Source: Magnetococcales bacterium
Lineage (GTDB): Bacteria > Pseudomonadota > Magnetococcia > Magnetococcales > JADFYX01
Direction of reading: 5' to 3'
DNA length: 45,406 nucleotides
Assembly: GCA_015231305.1 (NCBI GenBank)
Contig: JADGBW010000013.1
Location: 1-45,406, forward strand
The notes below the pieces were generated by a model that was given only the letters and a program-made list of their open reading frames with translations, ran no database searches and was not told the DNA's origin. The translations under genes and the position numbers were made by a program. Positions 10,583 to 45,406 of the stretch are shown piece after piece (position 1 is the stretch's first letter; every line of letters begins with the position of its first letter).

Positions 10583-13246
10583 TTGCTAACAGAGAATATG
10601 CAGGAAAATAGAAACATAGATGGGGATATAAGTGGTGAAGGTGATAGTGACTTACGCTTTGCTGAAGAGTCACTCGATGCCGTTTCTGATGCTCCAGTAA
10701 CTGGTGACCCTTGGAAAATCTTGGTTGTCGATGATGACAAGGATATCCATAGCCTAACCAATATGGTTTTGCGTGAGTTGGTGGTAGATGACTGTGGTGT
10801 AGCTATAATAAGCGGGTACTCCGGCAAGGATGCTTGCCGAATAATGGAAGAAGACCCCAGCATAGCAGTTTTGTTGCTAGATGTGGTGATGGAGAGTGAT
10901 AATGCTGGCTTAGAAGCCGTTCGTACAATTCGCGAAGAGTTGAGAAATAGCTTTGTTCGTATAATTTTACGTACTGGTCATGCTGGCCAAGCCCCAGAAT
11001 TAGACATCATATCCATGTATGACATCAACGACTATCGAGAAAAGACAGATCTCTCCAGTCAACAGTTGATAACTGCTGTAACAACTGCCATTAGAGCATT
11101 TCGTGATTTGCGCACCATAGAAAACCTAGCAGGTCGTCTTAAAGGTGAGAGAGAAACACTGAAAATTGCCCAGAAAATTGCTCATATAGGTAACTGGGAG
11201 TGGGACACTGTATCTGATAAAATAACTATTTCTGATGAGTTGTCTAATATATTTGGTCTTAAACTAGGTGAATTTGGTGGACGTATAGGCGATTATCTCG
11301 AACGAGTCCACCCAGATGATCGGGAAAAACTCGAGAGAATCACCCGAGATTCATTGAAAAACCGCAAATCTTTCTCCACAGAATATCGGGTTTTGCGTCC
11401 TGATGGCTCTAAACGTACCGTTAGAGCTTTAGGAGAGCCTTTTTATGATGGCAACGCATTGGGCAAACTTCGCATGATAGGTACTGTCCATGATATATCC
11501 CGTCAGCGTGACGCTGAAGACCACCTAAAAATTGCAACATCAGTATTTGGTGGTGTAATGAAGGAGGTAGAGACCCAGTTAACCCTAACTACCCAGGTTT
11601 TTGAAAGTGCAATTGAAGGGGTGGTAATTACCGATGCAAAAGGGATTATCCAAACTGTAAACAGTGCATTTACAACTATCACAGGTTATTCTGGCAAAGA
11701 GGCTATTGGCAGTTCTATAGATTTTCTCTGTTCTTCTGATCAAAATGATGAATCTTCTAAAGAGAAACAATCTGCCTTAAGAGATGGCACAGCCTGGAAG
11801 GGTGAAATTTGGAATAGACGAAAAAGTGGTGAGGCGTATCCCCAGTGGGAGACAATAACTGCAATATCTGACCAATCTGGACAGGTGACTAATTATGTTT
11901 CGGTATTTCATGATTTGTCAGATATTAAAGCCAGTGAAAAACTTCTTAAATTCAGAACTTACCACGATACCCTTACTGGGCTTCCAAATCGTGATCTTTT
12001 TCTTGACCGTTTAAATCAGTCTATTAGCCTTGCATCTCGTTCTAACAGCAAGGTGCTGGTGCTGTTTCTTGGTCTTGATCATTTTAAAAATATTAACAAT
12101 AGTTTAGGTCATGGTAGCGGTGATTTACTTCTGCAAAGTGTAGCAATTAGGTTTAAAGATTTTATTCGTGAGGGAGATACCATCTGCCGCTTGGGAGGTG
12201 ACTCTTTTGGTTTTATCATTCGCGGTATAAACTTGGTTAAAGATGCTCTAATAGTTATCCAAAAGCTATTAGGTGTAATAGCTCTACCTTTCAATATTAA
12301 TGAGCATGAACTTTTTGTTACTGCTAGCTCTGGTATTACCATGTATCCTGACGATGCAATGGATGCCAACTCACTGATTAAATATGCTGATATGGCATTA
12401 AATCGTGCTAAAGCAGCAGGGCGAGATAGATATCAGTTTTATACTGAGGCAATGGGTCGTCAGGCAGACAAACGTTTACACCTTGAAAAAAATTTACGTT
12501 TGGCTCTTGATAAAGGTGAGTTTGTGCTTTATTACCAGCCAAAGTTAAACTTACTTAATAAACATATTATAGGTATGGAGGCTCTTGTACGTTGGCAGCA
12601 TCCAGAAACTGGATTGATTCCTCCTAACGATTTTATTTCTATAGCTGAAGAGACTGGGCTTATTATTACTCTTGGGGAGTGGATTTTAAAAACGGCATGC
12701 CAACAAACTAAAGATTGGATAGACCAGGGATATGTTCCGTTAAAAGTTGCTGTTAATCTTTCAGCTCGGCAGTTTAGAGAAGAGGGTTTGGTTGGTTTGG
12801 TGGAAAACATATTGACCGAAACCGATTTGCCAGCCCAGATGTTGGAATTGGAAATAACAGAGAGCATGGTTATGGATGATGTGGATGAGGCTATTAATGT
12901 TCTGCAACAATTGCGCTCTTTGGGTGTCTCTATTGCTGTAGATGATTTTGGCACAGGATACTCATCCTTGAGTTATTTAGGGCTGTTTCCAATCCACACT
13001 TTAAAAATTGACCAATCTTTTGTCCGAGACTTAACTTCAGACTCCAAAGATGCTGCCATCGTTGAATCCATTATCTCTCTTGCTAAAGGTCTGGATTTGC
13101 GGGTTGTTGCAGAAGGGGTAGAGGGTAGCGAGCAGCAGGTTTTTCTTGAGTCAGAAGGGTGTGATGAAATACAAGGTTACTATTACAGCAAGCCTCTGCC
13201 AGTCGCAGCCTTTACCCAATTTTTAGCTACGAAAAAAAAATCCTAA
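10583..13246 (+). CDS. REC-PAS-PAS-GGDEF-EAL c-di-GMP phosphodiesterase
   Basis: The 887-residue cytoplasmic regulator has a receiver domain (about 44-175; acidic Asp50-52, phosphoacceptor Asp100 in LLLD, Lys154), of the type with RTGHAGQAPE and YDINDY. Two PAS domains follow (about 195-310 and 335-450), then GGDEF (about 455-620) and EAL (about 635-885). The GGDEF motif is GGDSF at 538-542, and the metal-binding Asp of LDLDHFK is Gly (LGLDHFK), so cyclase activity is probably lost. EAL residues are intact: EALVR 666-670, NLSARQF, ITES, DDFGTGYSS, LKIDQSF, AEGVE and QGYYYSKPL. Net activity is therefore probably c-di-GMP hydrolysis. The frame begins with TTG; an ATG at 10598 (five codons in) is an equally likely start. 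The gene stands alone. Confidence 0.9.
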   Translation: MLTENMQENRNIDGDISGEGDSDLRFAEESLDAVSDAPVTGDPWKILVVDDDKDIHSLTNMVLRELVVDDCGVAIISGYSGKDACRIMEEDPSIAVLLLDVVMESDNAGLEAVRTIREELRNSFVRIILRTGHAGQAPELDIISMYDINDYREKTDLSSQQLITAVTTAIRAFRDLRTIENLAGRLKGERETLKIAQKIAHIGNWEWDTVSDKITISDELSNIFGLKLGEFGGRIGDYLERVHPDDREKLERITRDSLKNRKSFSTEYRVLRPDGSKRTVRALGEPFYDGNALGKLRMIGTVHDISRQRDAEDHLKIATSVFGGVMKEVETQLTLTTQVFESAIEGVVITDAKGIIQTVNSAFTTITGYSGKEAIGSSIDFLCSSDQNDESSKEKQSALRDGTAWKGEIWNRRKSGEAYPQWETITAISDQSGQVTNYVSVFHDLSDIKASEKLLKFRTYHDTLTGLPNRDLFLDRLNQSISLASRSNSKVLVLFLGLDHFKNINNSLGHGSGDLLLQSVAIRFKDFIREGDTICRLGGDSFGFIIRGINLVKDALIVIQKLLGVIALPFNINEHELFVTASSGITMYPDDAMDANSLIKYADMALNRAKAAGRDRYQFYTEAMGRQADKRLHLEKNLRLALDKGEFVLYYQPKLNLLNKHIIGMEALVRWQHPETGLIPPNDFISIAEETGLIITLGEWILKTACQQTKDWIDQGYVPLKVAVNLSARQFREEGLVGLVENILTETDLPAQMLELEITESMVMDDVDEAINVLQQLRSLGVSIAVDDFGTGYSSLSYLGLFPIHTLKIDQSFVRDLTSDSKDAAIVESIISLAKGLDLRVVAEGVEGSEQQVFLESEGCDEIQGYYYSKPLPVAAFTQFLATKKKS

Positions 13247-13384
13247 AAAATATCCTTCATAATCTAAGATCATAACTGGTAAAAAAACCTAAGATTCGTT
13301 ATTTTAGTGCAGACCTGAATATCAAATAGTATGTTCAAGGTAGGCAAGTTGTGGTTTTAACCTCATGTTTTAGGTTTATGCTAA

Positions 13385-14284
13385 ATGACAATTCGTACTG
13401 CTGTTCTTCCCGTTGCGGGTTTAGGAACCCGTTTTTTACCAGTTACAAAATCTATCCCGAAGGAGATGTTGTCGGTTGTGGACCGCCCTTTGATTCAATA
13501 TGTGGTTGAGGAAGCGTTCTCAGCAGGTATTGAACAGGTTGTTTTGGTCTCTAGTAGGAGTAAATCTGTTTTGGAAGACCACTTTGATTCTCATGTAGAA
13601 TTAGAGATGGCATTAGAGGCAAAGGGTAAGGATGAGTTATTACAACTCGTAAAAGATCTAACGCCACCAAAAGGCAGATCAATTAGCGCGGTTCGTCAGA
13701 GTGCGCCTTTAGGTTTGGGGCATGCTGTGTTGTGTGCACAAGCTGTAGTTGGCAGAGAACCATTTGCAGTATTGTTACCAGACGATCTTATATGGACCGA
13801 CGATGCTACCCCATCTGTTTTAACTCAAATGGTAGAGCAGTATGAAAAAATTCAAGCATCGGTAGTTGCCGTCATGGAAGTTTCACCTGCACAGACTAAC
13901 CTCTATGGCGTTATTGATCCTTCTAATCCAGATGTTAGCAAAGGTGATAGTGTTATCAAGGCTAAAGGATTTGTGGAAAAACCATCTCCAGATATTGCTC
14001 CTTCCAATTTAGCTGTAGTAGGTCGTTATATTTTAACCCCTGAAATTTTTCCATTATTGGCAAATGGCAAAAAAGGAGCGGGAGGGGAAATTCAACTAAC
14101 CGATGCTATTTCAGCCTTGCTTGAGCAGCAGTCTGTATTTGGTTATCGGTTTTCAGGAACCCGATACGATTGTGGAGATAAAATAGGCTATCAAAAAGCT
14201 AATTTAGCTCTATCTTTGCAGAGACCAGATATGCGAAGTGAGCTTTTGCCTTTTATAAAGGAGCAGTTAGCGAGTTGGAGCTAA
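13385..14284 (+). CDS. galU: UTP-glucose-1-phosphate uridylyltransferase
   Basis: GalU makes UDP-glucose from UTP and glucose 1-phosphate for surface polysaccharides. The 299-residue protein has the nucleotide loop AGLGTRFLP (residues 11-19), IPKEML, DRPLIQYVVEEA, EDHFD, LPDD, the sugar-binding VEKPSPD, GGEIQLTDAI and the C-terminal RYDCGDKIGYQKAN. Length and motifs are normal for the family. Its downstream neighbour is UDP-glucose dehydrogenase, which uses its product. The 119-bp gap suggests a separate or weakly linked transcript. Confidence 0.95.
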   Translation: MTIRTAVLPVAGLGTRFLPVTKSIPKEMLSVVDRPLIQYVVEEAFSAGIEQVVLVSSRSKSVLEDHFDSHVELEMALEAKGKDELLQLVKDLTPPKGRSISAVRQSAPLGLGHAVLCAQAVVGREPFAVLLPDDLIWTDDATPSVLTQMVEQYEKIQASVVAVMEVSPAQTNLYGVIDPSNPDVSKGDSVIKAKGFVEKPSPDIAPSNLAVVGRYILTPEIFPLLANGKKGAGGEIQLTDAISALLEQQSVFGYRFSGTRYDCGDKIGYQKANLALSLQRPDMRSELLPFIKEQLASWS

Positions 14285-23902: not shown

Positions 23903-24859
23903 CTACATACAACAGCAGTTTCTGCCGCTATCTTTAGCTTTATATAGATTATTATCGGCCTGTTTTATTATATCTTCAAGTGAGCAAGTGTTGGATGATT
24001 CGCCAATGCCTATTGATACTGTGATGGAGGGGAGGGGGTCGCCTTTTTTTGCTTTTATCTCTTTTTTCTCTACGTTTTTACGCAAACGTTCTGCTACTTT
24101 TAGGGCATCTTTTGCGCTGGATTCTGGTAGTATAATCGTGAACTCTTCGCCACCGTATCTACCTGCTACATCCATGGGTCGGACTGTCTCTTTTAGTACT
24201 GCTCCTAGTGCAATTAAGGCTTGATCTCCGGCTTGGTGGCCTTGGGTGTCGTTGTAGTTTTTAAAGTGGTCTACGTCTAACATGATTACAGAAAACTTTT
24301 TACCACTCATCTGGCTGCGTGTGTATACCCGGTTTAATAATTTATCTAGCTCTCTTCTGTTTATCAGTCCTGTTAAGCCGTCTAACTGACTTAAACCTTT
24401 AAGGTTTTCTACTTCGTGGGAGCGGTCTATGAAACGTTCGTTGTCTGATATTATCCAATCGGTTAGTATAAAAAGTAGGTTTTGTGAAATATTAGCCGAT
24501 TTGCGAATTAAACCCCACAGTCGCTTTCTTGGTATAACAAGTAGGTGACAGGGTTGGCGAACAACCACTACAGCGGTAGCTTTGGTCTCTCCTAAAACTG
24601 ATAGTTCTCCTACTGTCTCTCCCACGTTTACTTGGCGTATGGGATGAGTGTCTATTGTTTCTAGGTGTATAGATAGGCTACCAGAAAGCACCAAATATGT
24701 GTTTTTATTTTCAGTGCCAACATCAATTAAAATATCACCGGGTTTGGTGCTTAAAACAGAACACTCTTCTAACTCGTATCTATAAATCTCAGGATCTATA
24801 TTTTGAAATAGTTTGCAGCTTTTAATTGCGTCAAGTTGATCGGTGTTAAGAGTTGACAT
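23903..24859 (-). CDS. cNMP-binding domain diguanylate cyclase
   Basis: The 318-residue cytoplasmic protein has a cyclic-nucleotide-binding domain (about 15-130; GDILIDVGTENKNTYLVLSGSL is the conserved first half) joined to a GGDEF domain (about 160-315). The active motif is GGEEF at 236-240, with DVDHFKNYND upstream, so cyclase activity is expected. RPMD at 227-230, five residues before the motif, is an intact inhibitory I-site. In the cNMP pocket, GELSVLGETKATA lacks the usual Arg-Ser/Thr-Ala, so ligand binding may be altered. It probably makes c-di-GMP in response to a small molecule or protein contact. Confidence 0.9.
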   Translation of the reverse strand: MSTLNTDQLDAIKSCKLFQNIDPEIYRYELEECSVLSTKPGDILIDVGTENKNTYLVLSGSLSIHLETIDTHPIRQVNVGETVGELSVLGETKATAVVVVRQPCHLLVIPRKRLWGLIRKSANISQNLLFILTDWIISDNERFIDRSHEVENLKGLSQLDGLTGLINRRELDKLLNRVYTRSQMSGKKFSVIMLDVDHFKNYNDTQGHQAGDQALIALGAVLKETVRPMDVAGRYGGEEFTIILPESSAKDALKVAERLRKNVEKKEIKAKKGDPLPSITVSIGIGESSNTCSLEDIIKQADNNLYKAKDSGRNCCCM

Positions 24860-25157: not shown

Positions 25158-27170
25158 ATGTTGGATATATTATCATCATCAAAAACCGATAGCCTTACAC
25201 TATATAAACGTATGGCCTTGGTGCGCTGTTTTGAAAAACGGTTGCTAGGTATGTTCTCACAAGGGTTGTTAATGGGAACTACCCATACCTGTTTAGGGCA
25301 GGAGGCCAACGCCGTTGGGGTGGTTGCAGCTTTGGCAGGTGATGATGTTGTGGTTAGTAACCACAGATGCCACGGGCATTTTCTTGCCCATACCGGAGAT
25401 ATGGCAGCTTTAATGGCAGAAATTATGGGTCGCGCCACTGGTGTTTGCGGTGGTTGGGGGGGAAGCCAGCACCTCTGTGTACCTAATAAATTTTATTCTA
25501 ACGGTATTCAAGGTGGTATTCTGCCTATGGCAGCAGGGCTTGCTTTAGCTCATAAAAATAGTGGTAGCAAACAAGTAGTTGTAGTTTTTATTGGTGATGG
25601 CACTATGGGGCAGGGGGTGGTTTATGAAACTCTTAACATAGCTAGCGTGTTATCACTGCCCCTGCTTATTGTTGTGGAAGATAACCACATTGCCCAAAGC
25701 ACCACTACAACAAACGTATTAGCTGGCAGTATTGGAGCCAGAGCTGAGGCTTTTGGAATTAAGTGGCAACATTTAAAAGCTCCATTAGTAGAGGATATTT
25801 ATGGAGCTGCCCAAAAAGCTGTCACAAAAATAAGAGATGGCAGTGGGCCACAAATGTTATGGTTGGATAGTGTGCGTTTAGGACCACATAGCAAAGGTGA
25901 CGATACCCGACCACAAGATGAAGTTGCCAAACTGCACCATTTAGACCCCCTAGAAAAAGCTAGTAAAGCCTTGTCTCCTGAAGTTGTGGATGAAATTTGG
26001 CTAGAAGCTGAAAAAGTTGTAGATGAGGTGGTTGCCAAAGCTAAGGATGCTCCTTGGCCTCAATGGACAAAAACCCAAAAACTAGTTTCACCCATAAATA
26101 GTGAACCGCAAATAGATGAGCCAGAATCTCTAGCTATATTAAATAAATTAAGCAACAAAAGCATGTTGGCAAACCTGCAAGATGCCCTAAACCAAATTTT
26201 GGGAGAAAATAGCGATTTATTATTGTTTGGTGAAGATGTTGTAGACCCCTATGGTGGTGCTTTTAAAGTAACCGATGGTCTATCTACTGCTTTTCCTAAT
26301 CAGGTTTTAGGAATGCCCATAAGCGAGGCAGCTATGGTAGGTATTGGGGGTGGTTTGGCTTTAGCTGGTAAAAAAGCTGTTGTTGAGATTATGTTTGGTG
26401 ATTTTTTAGGTCTGGGTATGGACCAACTTATAAATCATGCTGCCCGTTTCAGAGGCATGTATAATGGTCAACTTGAGCTACCCATGGTGGTGCGAACTCC
26501 CATGGGTGGTGGCCGTGGTTATGGCCCGACCCACTCACAAACCCTGGATAAACATTTTCTCGGCATACAGGGTTTAACAGTGCTTGCCCCTTCACCATTG
26601 CACCCACTATACCCCATGTTGCAAGGGGCCTTAACCGCAAAAGACCCCACCCTTTGGCTGGAAAATAAACTTGCCTATAGTTTTCGCACAAACGGTGGTG
26701 GTGATACTGCCATGGTGGACGATTTTTATATCTATTATGCAGGAGACGCTAGCCAACCTTGGGTTGTATTATCACATACAGGGTTTGAAGAAGATAGCGC
26801 AACTATAATAACCTATGGTGGCATGTTAGGGGTTGCTATGGAGGCTGCAAACAGGCTTTTGTTAGAGCATGAAATTCCAACTCGGCTCTTACTGCCTGGT
26901 TGTCTTTCACCTTTTGATGCAGAAGGTTGCATGCGTCTGCTTGCTGATGATGGCCCGCTATTGTTGTTAGAGGAGGGGTCTTCTCCGTTTGGTTTTGCTT
27001 CAGAAGTTATTGCTACTCTTACCGAAGCCGGGGCGTTAAACAGCCGGGCTGTTGGTCGTATTGGTATGGAAGGTCCTGCTATTCCTGCTAGTAAAGTTAT
27101 TGAGGAGAAAAGCTTGCCTGGAGCCGATGCTGTAGTAAACTGTATGTTGAATTTAAGGGAAAATAAATGA
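25158..27170 (+). CDS. fused alpha-beta 2-oxoacid dehydrogenase E1 component
   Basis: The 670-residue protein joins the E1 alpha and beta chains in one polypeptide. The alpha part (about 1-320) has YKRMALVRCFE, GQEANAVG, SNHRCHGHFLAHTGD and the thiamine diphosphate motif GDGTMGQG...EDN (146-176). The beta part (about 335-670) has LLFGEDV, GLSTAFPNQVLGMPISEAAMVGIG, MGGGRGYGPTHSQ and LLLEEGSSPFGFASEV. It would decarboxylate a 2-oxoacid and acylate the lipoyl group of E2. The substrate cannot be told. It overlaps the E2 gene by 4 bp (ATGA). No E3 gene is nearby; the housekeeping E3 could serve. It heads the six-gene operon. Confidence 0.9.
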   Translation: MLDILSSSKTDSLTLYKRMALVRCFEKRLLGMFSQGLLMGTTHTCLGQEANAVGVVAALAGDDVVVSNHRCHGHFLAHTGDMAALMAEIMGRATGVCGGWGGSQHLCVPNKFYSNGIQGGILPMAAGLALAHKNSGSKQVVVVFIGDGTMGQGVVYETLNIASVLSLPLLIVVEDNHIAQSTTTTNVLAGSIGARAEAFGIKWQHLKAPLVEDIYGAAQKAVTKIRDGSGPQMLWLDSVRLGPHSKGDDTRPQDEVAKLHHLDPLEKASKALSPEVVDEIWLEAEKVVDEVVAKAKDAPWPQWTKTQKLVSPINSEPQIDEPESLAILNKLSNKSMLANLQDALNQILGENSDLLLFGEDVVDPYGGAFKVTDGLSTAFPNQVLGMPISEAAMVGIGGGLALAGKKAVVEIMFGDFLGLGMDQLINHAARFRGMYNGQLELPMVVRTPMGGGRGYGPTHSQTLDKHFLGIQGLTVLAPSPLHPLYPMLQGALTAKDPTLWLENKLAYSFRTNGGGDTAMVDDFYIYYAGDASQPWVVLSHTGFEEDSATIITYGGMLGVAMEAANRLLLEHEIPTRLLLPGCLSPFDAEGCMRLLADDGPLLLLEEGSSPFGFASEVIATLTEAGALNSRAVGRIGMEGPAIPASKVIEEKSLPGADAVVNCMLNLRENK

Positions 27171-28306
27171 CCACAACAACCATAATAGTACCGCAAATTA
27201 ATGTTAACGATACCTCAGTATTTGTGGTTGAATGGCTGGTTGATGCTGGCAGTAAGGTGGAGGTTGGTGACCCTGTTGTTGCGGTAGAGACATCAAAGTC
27301 TGTTGTTGAGGTGGAGGCCGAAACCGTTGGTTATTTGCGCTGTGAAGCTGAAATTGGTGAGGAGCTTGAAATAGGCGCAACTTTGGGCTGGATAGATTCT
27401 CAAGCTAAGGGGGCTGGGCAGGACAATGCAGTACCTACAAAAAGCTCACAAAAAATAAAAGCCACAGCTAAAGCTCAACAACTAGCTGATGAGAACGGTA
27501 TTGAGCTTGCTGCCATAACAAAACGGGGAATAATAACCGAAAAAGATGTTATGCGCGCTATTGAACAACAGACATCACAAGTTTCTCAAACCCTAGACAA
27601 TCCCGAACTTAATTCTACAGATATTATCATCCCTTTAAACGCTGTTCAAAAATCAGCTATGCGGGTAGTTTTGCGATCTACCCAAGAACAGGCAGCAACC
27701 TTTATGTTGGGTGAGGTAGATGTTACCAATACGCTGCCAAAACTAAAGGAAATATCAACAAAAGACCGCTCCATAAGCAACTATACCATGGCTGATTTAT
27801 TGTTACACCAAGCTGCCAGAACATTAAAGGAGTTTCCCCGCTTTAATGCGACACTAATGGCTGGTGGCATTGTAGAACATAGCAGCGTTGATGTTGGTGT
27901 TACCATGGAGATTGAAGAACAGCTATATATGGGTGTGTTGCAAAATACAGATCAACTAACAATTGGTGAAATAGCCAAAAAACGCATGGCAATTTTGTTG
28001 AATATAATGCGGGGTAAGGGTCACGAAGCCGTTAGCCAACGTGGTACTTTTTCGGTGACAGTATTAGACCAGCCAGAGGTGCATCATCAAGTGCCAATTA
28101 TTTTTCCTGATCAAGCCGGAATTATCGGTCTGGGTGGTGTACGACGTGAGGTACGAGTGGGGCCAGACGATAAACCTTCTGTGCGTATGGTTGCAGGGCT
28201 CTCTCTTTCATATGATCATCGTTTTATCAATGGTCATTATGCTGCTCGTTTTCTAAAGGCTATATCTGCAAGGCTTGTTGAACCCCAAGGGATGAACAAT
28301 GTTTAA
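27167..28306 (+). CDS. 2-oxoacid dehydrogenase E2 acyltransferase
   Basis: The 379-residue protein has one lipoyl domain (about 5-75; lipoyl Lys44 in ETSKSVVEVE), a peripheral subunit-binding domain (about 102-137; KATAKAQQLADENGIEL...GIITEKDV) and a catalytic domain. The catalytic motif is SYDHRFING: the active His351 is present, but the Asp of the usual DHRxxDG is Asn355. The E2 would transfer the acyl group from lipoamide to CoA, or here perhaps to another acceptor. The Asn change may alter activity. It overlaps E1 upstream by 4 bp and the methyltransferase downstream by 8 bp. Confidence 0.9.
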   Translation: MTTTTIIVPQINVNDTSVFVVEWLVDAGSKVEVGDPVVAVETSKSVVEVEAETVGYLRCEAEIGEELEIGATLGWIDSQAKGAGQDNAVPTKSSQKIKATAKAQQLADENGIELAAITKRGIITEKDVMRAIEQQTSQVSQTLDNPELNSTDIIIPLNAVQKSAMRVVLRSTQEQAATFMLGEVDVTNTLPKLKEISTKDRSISNYTMADLLLHQAARTLKEFPRFNATLMAGGIVEHSSVDVGVTMEIEEQLYMGVLQNTDQLTIGEIAKKRMAILLNIMRGKGHEAVSQRGTFSVTVLDQPEVHHQVPIIFPDQAGIIGLGGVRREVRVGPDDKPSVRMVAGLSLSYDHRFINGHYAARFLKAISARLVEPQGMNNV

Positions 28307-29204
28307 TGGCAACTATCCCAAGCTACAATTGTTAAACGAGATATTTATAGAAAAATATCCCTTTATGGGGTCTACTATTAACAACGGCTTTACTGCTTTT
28401 GGCAAAACTTGGGCTGTGGAAGTTGAAGAGTTGCTTGCTGCTATGTTTGCAACTAACCAACAGCTAACTAAAGCAGTAGATGGCTATGTACGTTTTGCTA
28501 TGGATGTTACCCGTAGACAGTCGCGTTTTGATGATGCTTGTGAGTATCCGCAAAAAAGTTTTAACCAAGTTGCCGATGAGGTTTATCTTAACGACGAATA
28601 TATGGAGAGATATTACCTGCCGGGGCTTTTGTTATCACACATGCTTTGGCCCCACCACTACAGGCAGAGCAGGTTTTTTACTGCAACCTTTTTGCGTGAT
28701 ATGGAGGTAATGGGGGCTAAAGAGTTTGTTGATGCTGGTGTGGGTACAGGTTTTCTCTCCCGTTTAACCTTGGCAGCTTGCCCTGATATAACAGGTGTTG
28801 GTTTTGATGTAAGCCCTGCATCTAAAAAATTTGCTGAACTACAGGTGGCAAATTATAAACTATTAGACCGATATCAATGCAAATTGCTTAATCTATGTAC
28901 ACAGCCCACAAAGGTTGAGACCGATTGGCTAATATCAGCCGAGGTGTTAGAACATTTAGAAGATCCACTCTCCTTTCTGCAAAGGCTTCGTGTTATTCTG
29001 CGTCCTGGTGGTAAGGGTTTTATAACTGCTGCTTTAAATGCAGCGGAGATTGACCATATATATCTTTACCGCAACCCCATTGAGGTGCAAGATCAGCTTA
29101 TTGAGGCTGGGTTTACCATAGAGCAATATCAGTCTATTCCGGCTTATAAACCAAGAAAAATCAACATACCAACCCCAGAAGTGGTGGCTTTTATAGTTAC
29201 TTAA
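28299..29204 (+). CDS. class I SAM-dependent methyltransferase
   Basis: The 301-residue protein has an N-terminal helical region of about 130 residues of unknown role, then a Rossmann methyltransferase fold. That fold has the SAM-binding DAGVGTGFLS (145-154), the acidic VGFDVSP, and SAEVLEHLEDPLSFL, a strong match to motif II in Methyltransf_11-type enzymes, followed by LRPGGKGFITA. The start overlaps the E2 gene by 8 bp and a 17-bp gap precedes the ACP gene. The substrate is unknown; by context it could modify the acyl chain or the sugar. Confidence 0.85.
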   Translation: MFNGNYPKLQLLNEIFIEKYPFMGSTINNGFTAFGKTWAVEVEELLAAMFATNQQLTKAVDGYVRFAMDVTRRQSRFDDACEYPQKSFNQVADEVYLNDEYMERYYLPGLLLSHMLWPHHYRQSRFFTATFLRDMEVMGAKEFVDAGVGTGFLSRLTLAACPDITGVGFDVSPASKKFAELQVANYKLLDRYQCKLLNLCTQPTKVETDWLISAEVLEHLEDPLSFLQRLRVILRPGGKGFITAALNAAEIDHIYLYRNPIEVQDQLIEAGFTIEQYQSIPAYKPRKINIPTPEVVAFIVT

Positions 29205-29221
29205 AAACGGATAAATTTATT

Positions 29222-29461
29222 ATGAGCAACATGGAAAAATTGGTAGCAATATACCGTGAAGTACTAAAAAAACCAGATTTAGAGCTAAAGCCGGAGCTAA
29301 CCGCACGAGATGTTGATAATTGGGACTCTCTGGCCCATGTGCAGATTATTGTAGAAGTTGAAAAAAAATTTGGGGTTGAGTTTGATCTAGATGATTTTTT
29401 AGCCATCCGCAATGTGGGTGACTTTTTTAAACTACTGCAACGTTATGGTGTGGAACTTTGA
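29222..29461 (+). CDS. acyl carrier protein
   Basis: The 79-residue protein is a stand-alone carrier. The phosphopantetheine attachment site is Ser36 in DNWDSLAHVQ, and the helices MEKLVAIYREVL and VEKKFGVEFDLDDFLAI fit the fold. It is not in a fatty-acid operon, so it is a dedicated carrier for this pathway. It overlaps the next gene as TTGA at 29458-29461, which indicates translational coupling. Confidence 0.92.
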   Translation: MSNMEKLVAIYREVLKKPDLELKPELTARDVDNWDSLAHVQIIVEVEKKFGVEFDLDDFLAIRNVGDFFKLLQRYGVEL

Positions 29462-30327
29462 GCAACCTTAAAATAAAGCCTATTACAAACTCAGATTTAG
29501 CTTTGATGGCTAAATTTCTAACGGCTAATTTATCAGCACAGTTTAGTGCTGATGAGTGGGAGTTTGCATTTTCACAAGATTGGAGCAGCAATAAACCCAA
29601 CAACGGTTTTATGTTGTTAGATGGCGAGCAAGTTGTTGGAGTAGTTGGGGCTATATATTCTCAACAGATTGTAAACGGAAAAAAGGTTGATGTTTGCAAT
29701 ATAAACAGTTGGACAGTTTTACCCCAGTATCGTTCTGACAGTATCTATCTTTTAATTAAAACCATTCGCCAGCCTGGTTTTCATTTTACTATTCTCACTC
29801 CTCGCTTACAAGAGATGGAGATATACCGTTTTTTAAAATTTAGAACCATAGTCACCCGTATGATAGTTACTGCTAACCTACCATGGCCTTTTGCTCGTTT
29901 AAGAGGGGTGCGTACAATAACTGATATTGGTGCTTTGCAGCAGATGTTAAGCTTAAAAGATGCTAGAGTGCATAGGGAACACACATCAAGCCCATGGCTT
30001 AAACATATTGCAGTTGGTGTGGAGGGTGAGCTGTGTTATGTTATTTATCAGCGTGTAAAATTAAAAGGTCTGCCAACTGCTGCAATTTTATATGTTAGTG
30101 ACAGCGCGCTGTTTGATAAATATCGCTTGGCTTTAGGTCATGCATTGCTTGGGCGAGGTGCTCTGTTTATGCGGTTGGAGTCACGTTTTAATACCAATAA
30201 ACCCAAGCTCTCTCTCTTGCAAAATTATTCTACCCCCACTTTGGTGCTAAGCGACTTGCTTAAAGATTCTGACGTGCAAAATATCTACTCCGAACGAGCA
30301 GCATTAAATCTAGATGGCGTAACTTAA
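29458..30327 (+). CDS. GNAT-like N-acyltransferase
   Basis: The 289-residue protein has an N-terminal GNAT-like fold: IKPITNSDLALMAKFLT, FMLLDGEQVVGVVGAI, then SWTVLPQYRSDSIYLLI, which resembles the conserved acyl-CoA/pantetheine loop region. The C-terminal half lacks a recognised domain but has the look of a second GNAT-type half (LCYVIYQR, AAILYVSD). The TTG start overlaps the ACP stop, and the stop shares an A with the next start (TAATG). By context it could move an acyl group from ACP to an amino group. The GNAT assignment is moderate and the substrate is inferred. Confidence 0.7.
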   Translation: MSNLKIKPITNSDLALMAKFLTANLSAQFSADEWEFAFSQDWSSNKPNNGFMLLDGEQVVGVVGAIYSQQIVNGKKVDVCNINSWTVLPQYRSDSIYLLIKTIRQPGFHFTILTPRLQEMEIYRFLKFRTIVTRMIVTANLPWPFARLRGVRTITDIGALQQMLSLKDARVHREHTSSPWLKHIAVGVEGELCYVIYQRVKLKGLPTAAILYVSDSALFDKYRLALGHALLGRGALFMRLESRFNTNKPKLSLLQNYSTPTLVLSDLLKDSDVQNIYSERAALNLDGVT

Positions 30328-31328
30328 TGATCCACCCATATGCATCCATTACCTTACCAGCAGATATGCGCCCTATACTGCTTGTGGTGGTGGATACAGA
30401 GGAGACTTTTGCCTGGGATAAACCATTTGATCGTGGTGAAACTTCAGTTGCTGCAATGGGCAGTATTTACAAAGGACAAAAGATATTTACCGATTTTGGT
30501 ATAAGTCCGGTTTATGTAGTAGATTACCCCATTGCTGATCAAGAGGAGGGTTTTTTACAACTGCGAGAGTTTGTTGCTGCTGGTCAAGCTGTAGTAGGCG
30601 CTCATCTTCACCCTTGGGTATCCCCACCCTTTAACGAAAAAGTTAACCCTTATAATAGTTACCCAGGTAACTTGACTGTTGAGCAAGAAGAAGAAAAATT
30701 GAGGGTTTTAACTAAGCGTATAACCGCTGCATTTGGGGTAAGCCCACAGATATATAAAGCTGGGCGTTATGGTGTAGGCCCCAACACAGCAGCAATTTTG
30801 GCGAAACTTGGTTATAAGGTTGATTTAAGTATCGCCCCACCATTTAACTATAAAGCAGATGGTGGGCCAGACTTTACCAAAGCCAGCAACCAACCTTTTT
30901 GGTTTGGCGATGATGGAGAGTTGCTGGAGATACCGTGTAGCGGATCTTTTGTTGGGTCACTAAGTAAATATGGCAATAGGCTTCACCCCTTTATTAACAG
31001 CCCTTTTTTGCAGCAGTTACGCTTGCCTGGCATTATGTCTCGTTTGGGGCTGTTGGAGCGTATTCGCCTAACACCTGAAGGATATGATCTTGCCGATTTA
31101 AAAAGGTTAACTGACCATCTTCTGACGAACGGTACAAAAATTTTCACCTTGAGCTTCCACTCCCCGTCTTTGTCCCCAGGGGCTATAGATTATGTGCAGG
31201 ACGATGCAGCTTTACAGCGGTTTTTAGCAACAATAAGTGGTTATTTAGAATATTTCTTACATACCATTGGGGGTGAGTCGTTAACCCCGCTTGATATCAA
31301 ACAACGCTTACAAAAGCTAAAGCTATAG
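30327..31328 (+). CDS. WalW-like polysaccharide deacetylase family protein
   Basis: The 333-residue protein matches WalW-type deacetylases: LLVVVDTEETFAWDKPF, VVDYPIADQ, GAHLHPWVSPPF (metal His residues), NSYPGN, YKAGRYGVGPNTAAIL, GYKVDLSIAPP, LLEIPCSGSFVGS and LSFHSPSLSPG. The family belongs to the NodB-like fold that removes N-acetyl groups from sugars, usually in exopolysaccharide clusters. Metal-site Asp and His are visible at DTEE and HLHP. It is the last gene of the operon, coupled by TAATG to the GNAT-like gene. It would generate the free amine that the acyltransferase uses; that link is an inference. Confidence 0.85.
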   Translation: MIHPYASITLPADMRPILLVVVDTEETFAWDKPFDRGETSVAAMGSIYKGQKIFTDFGISPVYVVDYPIADQEEGFLQLREFVAAGQAVVGAHLHPWVSPPFNEKVNPYNSYPGNLTVEQEEEKLRVLTKRITAAFGVSPQIYKAGRYGVGPNTAAILAKLGYKVDLSIAPPFNYKADGGPDFTKASNQPFWFGDDGELLEIPCSGSFVGSLSKYGNRLHPFINSPFLQQLRLPGIMSRLGLLERIRLTPEGYDLADLKRLTDHLLTNGTKIFTLSFHSPSLSPGAIDYVQDDAALQRFLATISGYLEYFLHTIGGESLTPLDIKQRLQKLKL

Positions 31329-42576: not shown

Positions 42577-45406
42577 ATGGCAGAAGATCCAAAAACCAGC
42601 GAAGAAACTACCGAAGAAGAAGATACCGAGAGACAGAATCTTGATGATATGACTGTCTTGGATGGTGCTGGTCAGTCTGAAGATATTGATGCTGAGAGTA
42701 TGGCTGATATCTCTTCAGAAGGGGTAGAGGATAGCGGTGGATCAAGCTCTATTAATATGGGTAGTAGAGAGCAGGCTACGGAAGATGCTGCCAATGTGAT
42801 GTCAGCCTTAACAGATATAGAAGGTTTTTCTCAAGTATCGCGTGGTGAAGAAGAAGAAGAGGTAGCAGATGATGCACTAGATTTAGGCACACAAGAGTTT
42901 CAAGCAGCCGAAGAAGAGTCAGTAGGAATTGAAAGTACAGCTACCCGTTATCAAACTTCAGAAACAGAAGCAGGTGCAGAGGAAGAGGATGGAGAAGAGC
43001 TAGCTGCTTCAGCAAGATCTGGAACATCAGCTCAAGGCGGCTTCGGAGTTGGAGAGGAGGAGGAAGAAGAAGAGGCAGAAGAGGAGGCGGAAAGAGCAGC
43101 AGAAGAGGCAGCCCAAGAGTTAGCAGAAGAAGAAGAGCAAGAGGCAGAAGAGCAAGAGGCAGAAGCCGAACCAGAGCCGGAACCCGAGCCAGTATTTGAG
43201 GATACAATCGCATCGGAAGCATCGTTAGAAACCGCGGATGCCTCAGGCACAGAAGATGGAGCCATTAGTCTTAATATAGCATCTGGTTTAACAGATACCG
43301 ATGGTTCTGAATCTCTCTCCATAACTATTGAGGGTGTCCCAGAAGGAGCGGAACTCTCTGCAGGTACGGATAATGGAGATGGCACTTGGACTTTAGAGCC
43401 TGGTGACCTTGAAGGCTTGACAGTTACCCCACCTGAAAATTCAGATAACGACTTCACTTTAAGTGTAACAGCTACAACAACAGAATCATTTGGTGGTGAT
43501 CAGACCTCAGTTACCGGAAGCATAAATGTATCAGTTGATGCTGATGCTGACGCACCAACATTAGTATTAGAAGATAGCGCGTCTGGCACTGAAGATGGTG
43601 GAGCTATTCCACTTGATATAAGCTCTGGTTTAACAGATACAGATGGCTCAGAGTCCTTATCAATCACAATTGAGGGTGTTCCCGAAGGAGCAGAACTTTC
43701 CGCAGGAACCGATAATGGTGATGGCACATGGACACTGGAAGCAGACGATCTTGAGGGTTTAACAATTACCCCAGCTGAGAATTCCGACGAAGATTTTTCC
43801 TTAAGCGTAACAGCCACCTCAACAGAGGGAGGCGGTGGAGATACAGCCACCACAACGGGAACCATTGATATATCAGTAGATGCTGAAGCTGACGCGCCTA
43901 CTTTGGTAATGGATAATGCATCAGGCACAGAAGATAACGCAATAAGCTTGGACCTCTCTTCTGGCCTAACAGATACCGACGGATCAGAGTCATTATCCAT
44001 AACCATTGAAGGTGTACCAGAAGGAGCAGAACTTTCCGCAGGTACAGATAATGGAGATGGAACCTGGACCTTGGATGCTGGAGATTTAGAAGGTTTAACA
44101 GTAACCCCAGCAGAGAATTCCGATGAAGATTTCACCTTAAGTGTAACCGCTACATCTACAGAGGCTGATGGAGGTGATACAGCTACTACCACAGGCACAA
44201 TAAATGTATCCGTAGAAGCCGATGCCGACGCACCAACCCTAGAACTGACCGATACCGCATCAGGCACAGAAGATGGAGCCATAAGCTTAGACATAGCCTC
44301 CGGCCTTACCGATACCGACGGATCAGAGTCTCTATCCATAACCATTGAAGGAGTACCAGAAGGAGCCGAACTATCCTCCGGTACAGACAATGGAGATGGC
44401 ACTTGGACATTGGATGCAGGAGATTTAGAAGGTCTAACCATAACTCCTCCTGAGAATTCCGATGAAGACTTTTCCTTAAGTGTAACAGCTACATCCACAG
44501 AGGCAGATGGTGGAGATTCAGAGTCAGTATCAGGAACAATAAATGTTTCAGTAGATGCTGAAGCTGACGCGCCAACCCTAGAACTAACCGATACCGCTTC
44601 AGGTACTGAAGATGGAGCAATTAGCTTAGATATAGCTTCCGGTCTAACTGATACTGACGGATCAGAATCCCTATCCATAACCATTGAAGGAGTACCAGAA
44701 GGGGCCGAACTCTCCGCAGGTATAGATAATGGAGATGGAACCTGGACTTTGGATGCAGGAGATTTAGAAGGATTAACAGTAACCCCACCTGAAGATTCCG
44801 ACGAAGATTTCTCATTAAGCGTAACAGCTACATCCACAGAAGCTGATGGAGGGGATACAGCCACCACAACAGGCACAATAAATGTATCAGTAGATGCCGA
44901 TGCTGATGCCCCAACCCTAGAACTAACTGATACCGCATCAGGCACAGAAGATGGAGCCATAAGCCTAGATATAGCCTCCGGTCTAACCGATACCGACGGG
45001 TCAGAGTCACTATCCATAACCATTGAAGGTGTTCCAGAAGGAGCCGAACTCTCTGCAGGTACGGATAATGGAGATGGAACCTGGACTTTAGATGCAGGAG
45101 ATTTAGAAGGATTAACAGTAACCCCAGCAGAGAATTCCGATGAAGATTTCTCCCTAAGCGTAACAGCTACATCCACAGAGGCTGATGGAGGAGATACAGC
45201 CATCACAACTGGAACAATTGATGTATCCGTAGATGCTGAAGCTGATGCACCTACATTGGTTATGGATGATAGTGCCTCAGGCACAGAAGATGGAGCCATA
45301 AGCTTAGATATAGCCTCCGGTCTAACAGATACCGACGGATCAGAGTCACTATCCATAACCATTGAAGGAGTACCAGAAGGAGCCGAACTCTCCGCAGGTA
45401 CAGATA
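42577..45406 (+). CDS. giant adhesin-like repeat protein (N-terminal part, runs off the window)
   Basis: The ATG at 42577 opens a frame with no stop before the window edge, giving at least 943 residues. Residues 1 to about 210 are strongly acidic, with long Glu/Ala runs at about 153-200 and a PEPEPEPV linker; no signal peptide or hydrophobic segment is seen. From about residue 220 it consists of 113-residue repeats with the pattern SGTEDGAISL, GLTDTDGSESLSITIEGVP, AGTDNGDGTWTL, DLEGLTVTP, DEDFSLSVTAT and ADAPTL. These are cadherin/Ig-like modules with DTDGSE and DNGDG calcium-type motifs, as in RTX adhesins. Type I secretion with a C-terminal signal outside the window is likely. Confidence 0.88.
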   Translation, partial: MAEDPKTSEETTEEEDTERQNLDDMTVLDGAGQSEDIDAESMADISSEGVEDSGGSSSINMGSREQATEDAANVMSALTDIEGFSQVSRGEEEEEVADDALDLGTQEFQAAEEESVGIESTATRYQTSETEAGAEEEDGEELAASARSGTSAQGGFGVGEEEEEEEAEEEAERAAEEAAQELAEEEEQEAEEQEAEAEPEPEPEPVFEDTIASEASLETADASGTEDGAISLNIASGLTDTDGSESLSITIEGVPEGAELSAGTDNGDGTWTLEPGDLEGLTVTPPENSDNDFTLSVTATTTESFGGDQTSVTGSINVSVDADADAPTLVLEDSASGTEDGGAIPLDISSGLTDTDGSESLSITIEGVPEGAELSAGTDNGDGTWTLEADDLEGLTITPAENSDEDFSLSVTATSTEGGGGDTATTTGTIDISVDAEADAPTLVMDNASGTEDNAISLDLSSGLTDTDGSESLSITIEGVPEGAELSAGTDNGDGTWTLDAGDLEGLTVTPAENSDEDFTLSVTATSTEADGGDTATTTGTINVSVEADADAPTLELTDTASGTEDGAISLDIASGLTDTDGSESLSITIEGVPEGAELSSGTDNGDGTWTLDAGDLEGLTITPPENSDEDFSLSVTATSTEADGGDSESVSGTINVSVDAEADAPTLELTDTASGTEDGAISLDIASGLTDTDGSESLSITIEGVPEGAELSAGIDNGDGTWTLDAGDLEGLTVTPPEDSDEDFSLSVTATSTEADGGDTATTTGTINVSVDADADAPTLELTDTASGTEDGAISLDIASGLTDTDGSESLSITIEGVPEGAELSAGTDNGDGTWTLDAGDLEGLTVTPAENSDEDFSLSVTATSTEADGGDTAITTGTIDVSVDAEADAPTLVMDDSASGTEDGAISLDIASGLTDTDGSESLSITIEGVPEGAELSAGTD
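43243..45406 (+). repeat. tandem 339-bp (113-aa) repeats in the adhesin
   Basis: The SGTEDG segment begins at 43243, 43582, 43921, 44260, 44599, 44938 and 45277. Every step is exactly 339 bp, with no insertion or deletion across six complete units and a partial seventh. Most differences between units are synonymous. Later units look more alike than the first, suggesting recent duplication or gene conversion. Confidence 0.95.

Follow-up and report, generated by a model that had tools for sequence, protein, structure and literature searches.

What is made by an operon that places a 2-oxoacid dehydrogenase-like enzyme pair beside a stand-alone acyl carrier protein (ACP), a methyltransferase and two putative sugar-modifying enzymes? 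We examined this question for a locus in a Magnetococcales bacterium; the window, as we call the whole stretch of DNA analysed, spans 45,406 nucleotides. The reading that we favour, by a modest measure, is that the operon charges its dedicated ACP with a short hydroxyacyl group, glycolyl being the most likely, for placement on the amine of a cell-envelope amino sugar.

A conserved six-gene operon in one genus

The operon occupies positions 25158-31328 of the + strand, and the earlier note's description of six coupled genes proved exact for every open reading frame and junction. E1 (25158-27170, 670 aa) is a ThDP enzyme with its alpha and beta parts fused and belongs to the NapB/QncN/RenH (two-component transketolase) clade; E2 (27167-28306, 379 aa) joins a lipoyl domain to an acyltransferase catalytic domain; the SAM methyltransferase (MT; 28299-29204, 301 aa) has a conserved N-terminal extension; and the stand-alone ACP (29222-29461, 79 aa) carries its phosphopantetheine serine, Ser36, in a DSL motif (29327-29329). 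These are followed by a GNAT-superfamily-like acyltransferase with a TTG start (29458-30327, 289 aa), which we propose to be an N-acyltransferase, and a NodB/WalW-like deacetylase (30327-31328, 333 aa) with motifs DTEE, HLHPW, KAGRYG and FHSP, a proposed sugar N-deacetylase. From 5' to 3', the junctions are a 4-bp ATGA overlap, an 8-bp overlap, a 17-bp gap, a 4-bp TTGA overlap and a 1-bp overlap, TAATG. Pfam matches above cut-off were obtained for E1 (E1_dh, Transket_pyr, Transketolase_C), E2 (lipoyl, 2-oxoacid_dh), MT and ACP.

To the left of the operon lie a GmhB-like gene and KdsB, and no NRPS or PKS gene was found in or near the operon. A GGDEF/cNMP-binding gene (23903-24859, - strand) separates the GmhB-like gene from the operon in the window; this is not so in a second member of the genus (G003), where the GmhB-like gene lies ~120 bp upstream. 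At the other end of the window, a tandem array of a 339-bp unit (43243-45406; 6.4 copies, 80% match), corresponding to a repeat-rich large protein, runs up to the window end.

Gene order and position of the six-gene set are the same in two other genus members, both Magnetococcales MAGs (G003, locus L058; G004, locus L059), with the contig of G004 beginning inside E1 and leaving that gene incomplete. The same AmiC-like amidase follows the set in both. Protein identities between the window and these genomes are 61-77%, rising to 90% for ACP, and dN/dS is 0.05-0.18 for the operon genes where computable; judged by sequence, the operon is under purifying selection and its genes are not chance ORFs. 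The full set is nonetheless patchy among the genus members sampled: G002 (99% complete) has the deacetylase and no close E1, and neither was seen in G001 (65% complete). All six families together are known from this one genus only; the E1/E2-MT-ACP core is more widespread, some of its copies being split or cut by contig ends.

Enzyme class of the E1/E2 pair

The earlier note had taken E1/E2 for a 2-oxoacid dehydrogenase making acyl-CoA; an enzyme of the acetoin, branched-chain or pyruvate type is not supported. A tblastn search against plasmids matched E1 to RenH of the renieramycin cluster, with 45% identity across 70% of the query length (42% when 660 aa are aligned); identity to PDH-type E1s is 31-37%. 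Maximum-likelihood analysis of 51 E1s placed the window E1, RenH, actinomycete NapB-type E1s and E1s linked to glycan loci together in a single clade of 34 rows, supported at 100/100. The 17 rows outside it include the PDH-like E1 of the window's own genome (L004) along with BCKDH-like E1s and further fused E1s. The clade signature RGYGPTHSQTLDKHFLG lies at 26514-26564 (aa 453-469); its R453, Y455 and G469 are present in 34/34 clade E1s and differ from PDH/BCKDH E1. Around the active site, the clade is separated from PDH/BCKDH-type E1s at Q104, Q118, R453, Y455, T458, K465 and G469. The best score against the NCBIfam equivalog for PDH-like E1 was 221.5, short of its cut-off of 393.85.

E2 carries the lipoyl motif ETSK (27287-27298; lipoyl-lysine K44) and the active-site motif DHRFING (28214-28234), with the NapD-type N where PDH E2 has D. 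Namely, NapD-type E2s read DHR(I/L/F/V)(I/V)NG and PDH-type E2s DHRxxDG; the motif of RenI is DHRVLTG, so the N-motif is not universal in clade systems. With the tree and the signature residues against it, we rejected a plain PDH, BCKDH or acetoin dehydrogenase identity for E1/E2. By clade and motifs, the pair groups with NapB/NapD-type two-component transketolases, with catalysis predicted to match. Such enzymes are reported to make glycolyl-ACP from ketose phosphate (PNAS 2012, and two papers that cite it). By analogy, the window pair would also make glycolyl-ACP, with the proviso that donor specificity inside the E1 clade could differ from that of NapB/QncN.

The missing E3 noted earlier is indeed encoded elsewhere: none lies inside the operon, and one over cut-off is found in the genome at C211, so lipoyl re-oxidation would be possible without a local copy. 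Many true 2-oxoacid dehydrogenase complexes also have no linked E3, making its absence a weak criterion.

Searching actinomycete genomes revealed split E1s, several of them beside ACP or NRPS genes. One locus (L227) has the gene order KAS-III, E1beta/E2, ACP, E1alpha, which in order and sizes (KAS-III 336, 754, ACP 76 and 306 aa) matches the napE-D-C-B/dinQ-S-T-U (naphthyridinomycin/dnacin) set as given in PMC7570522. Two further loci are candidates for glycolyl-containing peptide products: in Lentzea kentuckyensis (L173, around 10001) E1/E2 lie beside NRPS genes, and in Ruminiclostridium sufflavum (L155:9968-19104) E1 is followed by a 2390-aa protein that opens with a lipoyl/E2 region.

A proposed route from acyl carrier to amino sugar

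The nearest E1s outside the genus come from Gallionella (L099) and a member of the Rhodospirillaceae (L165), with group support of 100/99; among 274 genomes of the Gallionella class, no second close E1 was found. NeuB-type synthases and cytidylyltransferase-like genes are present at both loci, and L099 additionally has a PseC/WecE-like aminotransferase. In L099, the gene after E2 (13067-14071) encodes an ACP fused to an Antibiotic_NAT (aminoglycoside-N-acetyltransferase-type) domain; in L165, E2 itself is fused to Antibiotic_NAT (11971-14157). Because the carrier is fused to a sugar acyltransferase, these proteins provide strong indirect evidence that the E1-made acyl group would go onto an (amino) sugar.

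Fusions of a related kind recur among the proteins in the E2 position at 60 clade loci (alignment A8), which have a lipoyl domain in 60/60 cases, an E2 catalytic domain in 27/60 and a hexapeptide domain in 33/60, with a PglD_N match in 28 of the 60. The lipoyl-hexapeptide fusion loci come from many phyla. These fusions, mostly PglD/NeuD-type, adjoin NapB-type E1 at L109:11807-12907 (from Mesorhizobium), L102:12054-13184, L125:3450-4553 and a further 30 loci among the 60. At L065 (G027:C25), a split NapB-type E1 and a lipoyl-hexapeptide protein lie within a NeuB/NeuC-like/LegC-like nonulosonate cluster with a NodB gene.

In the window, the corresponding acceptor step would fall to the last two genes of the operon. 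In Pfam the GNAT-like protein stays below threshold, the best E for any member of its family being 6e-4, and its AlphaFold model, built on a 2-row alignment, has a pLDDT of 45 and is poor beyond about residue 100. With this low-confidence model, nearly all of the best 50 Foldseek matches listed were GNAT-superfamily proteins (NMT, GNA1). The canonical Q/RxxGxG/A CoA loop is absent, with YR-xxS in its place (alignment A2). Pfam matched none of the 16 deacetylase family members, and NCBIfam gave nothing meaningful for them; the motifs DTEE, HxHPW, KAGRYG and HSP are invariant in the family alignment. An hhalign comparison with NodB-type deacetylases gave a probability of 69% (E 4e-5) for a partial match over the HxH and KAGRYG blocks, and the AlphaFold model (pLDDT 38) likewise rests on 2 rows, an alignment too shallow in both cases to decide the fold. 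PDB profile searches with both families returned nothing useful. Hydropathy revealed no signal peptide or membrane helix in either protein, so the acceptor should be cytoplasmic; a sugar precursor in the cytoplasm takes the place of the exposed surface glycan proposed earlier.

Of 100 relatives, 29 have the GNAT-like family, nearly all of them within the order; the deacetylase occurs in roughly half the order, usually as a single copy at ~50% identity. Enough flank was available at 21 GNAT-family places in the order. At 14 of these a deacetylase lies no more than 6 kb away (WalW-like at 10, PIG-L at 3, NodB at 1), and 7 have none in that range, some of them near contig ends; these cassette comparisons all come from one order, and the counts are not independent events. 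Because unrelated deacetylase families occupy the same slot beside GNAT, we argue that the two proteins form a putative deacetylate-then-reacylate pair.

While ACP, GNAT and deacetylase persist, the acyl-ACP source varies among FkbH, KAS-III and E1/E2. FkbH (TIGR01686, over cut-off) is the source in L080 and L190, FkbH-similar genes were detected by tblastn in the L082 and L096 cassettes, and a KAS-III-like source is found in L193. E1/E2 serve in the window and in G019, where PIG-L, GNAT and E1 lie on one contig and E1, E2 and MT on another, the two probably being parts of a single locus that a contig end interrupts. The same genome has an FkbH gene followed immediately by NapB-type E1 and E2 (L061:7280-10920). 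The MT family recurs with both FkbH-ACP (L190) and E1/E2-ACP (the window genus, G006 and Desulfovibrionaceae L145); because it accompanies both sets, our guess is that MT methylates an ACP-bound hydroxyacyl group. L190 is itself a paralogous cassette in the window's own genome (C187:17000-36101), with FkbH, two ACPs, MT, VOC, MBOAT, an SGNH-like gene, PIG-L fused to a methyltransferase-like part and a GNAT-like gene. Several paralogous cassettes have an MBOAT ending FIYFQF and an SGNH-like gene.

In aggregate, the idea that the acyl group passes to ACP and then to an amino sugar, with a deacetylase as partner, gains from the N-acyltransferase fusions to ACP and E2, the lipoyl-hexapeptide fusions and the recurrent pairing of GNAT with deacetylases of unrelated families.

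Proposed pathway, alternatives and known systems

What the sequences show directly is the identity of E1, E2, MT and ACP, the clade of E1/E2, the motifs and the conserved linkage; from these features we infer the chemistry, the product, the acceptor and the MT target. As its membership of the NapB/QncN clade suggests, E1 would transfer a two-carbon ketol unit to ThDP, with a ketose phosphate as its source. The unit would then be oxidised onto the E2 lipoyl group, giving a glycolyl thioester, with the genome's own E3 re-oxidising the lipoyl group, and E2 would hand the acyl to ACP. In the weakest step, MT may methylate the ACP-bound acyl, for example to methoxyacetyl. Finally, a sugar precursor in the cytoplasm would lose its N-acetyl group to the deacetylase, and the free amine would be re-acylated by the GNAT-like protein with acyl-ACP as donor.

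The same pathway end, with an acyl group passing from ACP to an amino sugar, would be reached if, in line with the earlier note, E1/E2 were a genuine 2-oxoacid dehydrogenase acting on some special 2-oxoacid. The E1/E2/lipoyl fold is of that type, and hydroxypyruvate would likewise yield glycolyl; however, both E1 and E2 cluster with and carry the signatures of NapB/NapD-type proteins, unlike PDH/BCKDH near the active site, and we hold this route to be unlikely. A little less probable still is that the acyl-ACP supplies an MBOAT/SGNH pair encoded elsewhere, which would O-acylate an envelope polymer, the GNAT-like protein and deacetylase serving an unrelated step of the same polymer. In G006 the E2-MT-ACP set adjoins MBOAT and a DUF1574/SGNH-like gene, the window's own genome has the MBOAT cassette at C187, and the FIYFQF ending of the paralogous-cassette MBOATs resembles the hexapeptide, Tyr included, at the C-terminus of PatA-type MBOATs (PMC12148441). 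Against this, no MBOAT lies in or near the window operon in three genomes, and the nearest relatives fuse ACP or E2 to N-acyltransferase domains. As the outlet for part of the cassette family, O-acylation is a live rival.

We regard as improbable, and as the most doubtful of these readings, a natural-product-like small soluble metabolite or lipid head group in place of an envelope glycan. NRPS natural products are the only products known to have been assigned to clade members, but the operon has no NRPS/PKS gene in or near it, its closest relatives sit in NeuB/aminotransferase/cytidylyltransferase loci, and its left-hand neighbours are the GmhB-like gene and KdsB.

Under the favoured reading, glycolylation of an envelope amino sugar, an enzyme pair that transfers two-carbon units, so far associated with antibiotic assembly lines, appears to be used for sugar N-acylation. 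If true, a reaction known only from those assembly lines would enter ordinary cell-envelope sugar chemistry, and bacteria would have a CoA-independent way to N-glycolyl-type sugars. More tentatively, and with somewhat less than even confidence, we suggest an undescribed, widespread form of glycan N-acylation: a transketolase-like E1 would load a C2 unit directly from sugar phosphates of central metabolism onto a protein-bound lipoyl group, and the lipoyl thioester, in place of acyl-CoA, would be the donor, directly, via fused PglD- or Antibiotic_NAT-type domains or via ACP as here, yielding N-glycolyl or O-methyl-glycolyl sugars. The lipoyl-acyltransferase fusions (33/60 loci, many phyla) make this idea testable with single proteins, and genes annotated as PDH-like in glycan loci may in fact encode two-component transketolases. 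Literature searches on lipoyl/PglD, E1/legionaminic acid and N-glycolyl/O-antigen found no description of such a system; in PMC4875605, 'lipoylation' refers to fatty-acyl chains, not lipoic acid.

Several known systems share parts of this set. PDH, BCKDH and acetoin dehydrogenase complexes have the same E1/E2 domain architecture and lipoyl swinging arm but differ in active-site residues, clade, the E3 missing from the operon and the ACP present in it. PglD/NeuD and Antibiotic_NAT families, fused in relatives to a lipoyl domain, E2 or ACP, likely perform the acceptor step for which the window has its GNAT-like protein; known enzymes of both families use acetyl-CoA. FkbH-type sets for glyceryl-ACP (TIGR01686), which include an ACP and an O-methyltransferase, fill the same source slot beside homologous GNAT, deacetylase, ACP or MT genes in Magnetococcales (L080, L082 and L190), although with an unrelated enzyme and carbon source. 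The closest solved structure to the window ACP is GmACP3 of Geobacter metallireducens (PDB 2lml; E 2.5e-11), which is reported to lie near LPS genes.

The nearest described counterparts are the NapB/NapC/NapD (naphthyridinomycin), QncN/QncM/QncL (quinocarcin), SclQ1-4 (scleric acid), DinU/T/S (dnacin B1) and RenH/RenI (renieramycin) systems. According to PMC6335953, QncN/L/M direct both the biosynthesis of a C2-glycolicacyl unit and its attachment to a nonribosomal peptide, with a ketose phosphate proposed as the source for their homologues. Similar to Nap-type systems, the window combines an E1 of the RenH/NapB clade with a lipoyl-E2, a NapD-type DHRxxNG motif and a separate small ACP (29222-29461), which beside E1/E2 completes a NapB/C/D-type triad. 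Unlike Nap and Qnc, its E1 is alpha-beta fused and its E2 separate, as in RenH/RenI; and unlike Nap, Qnc and Ren, the operon has no NRPS, its E1/E2 pair being linked to MT, a GNAT-like protein and a deacetylase.
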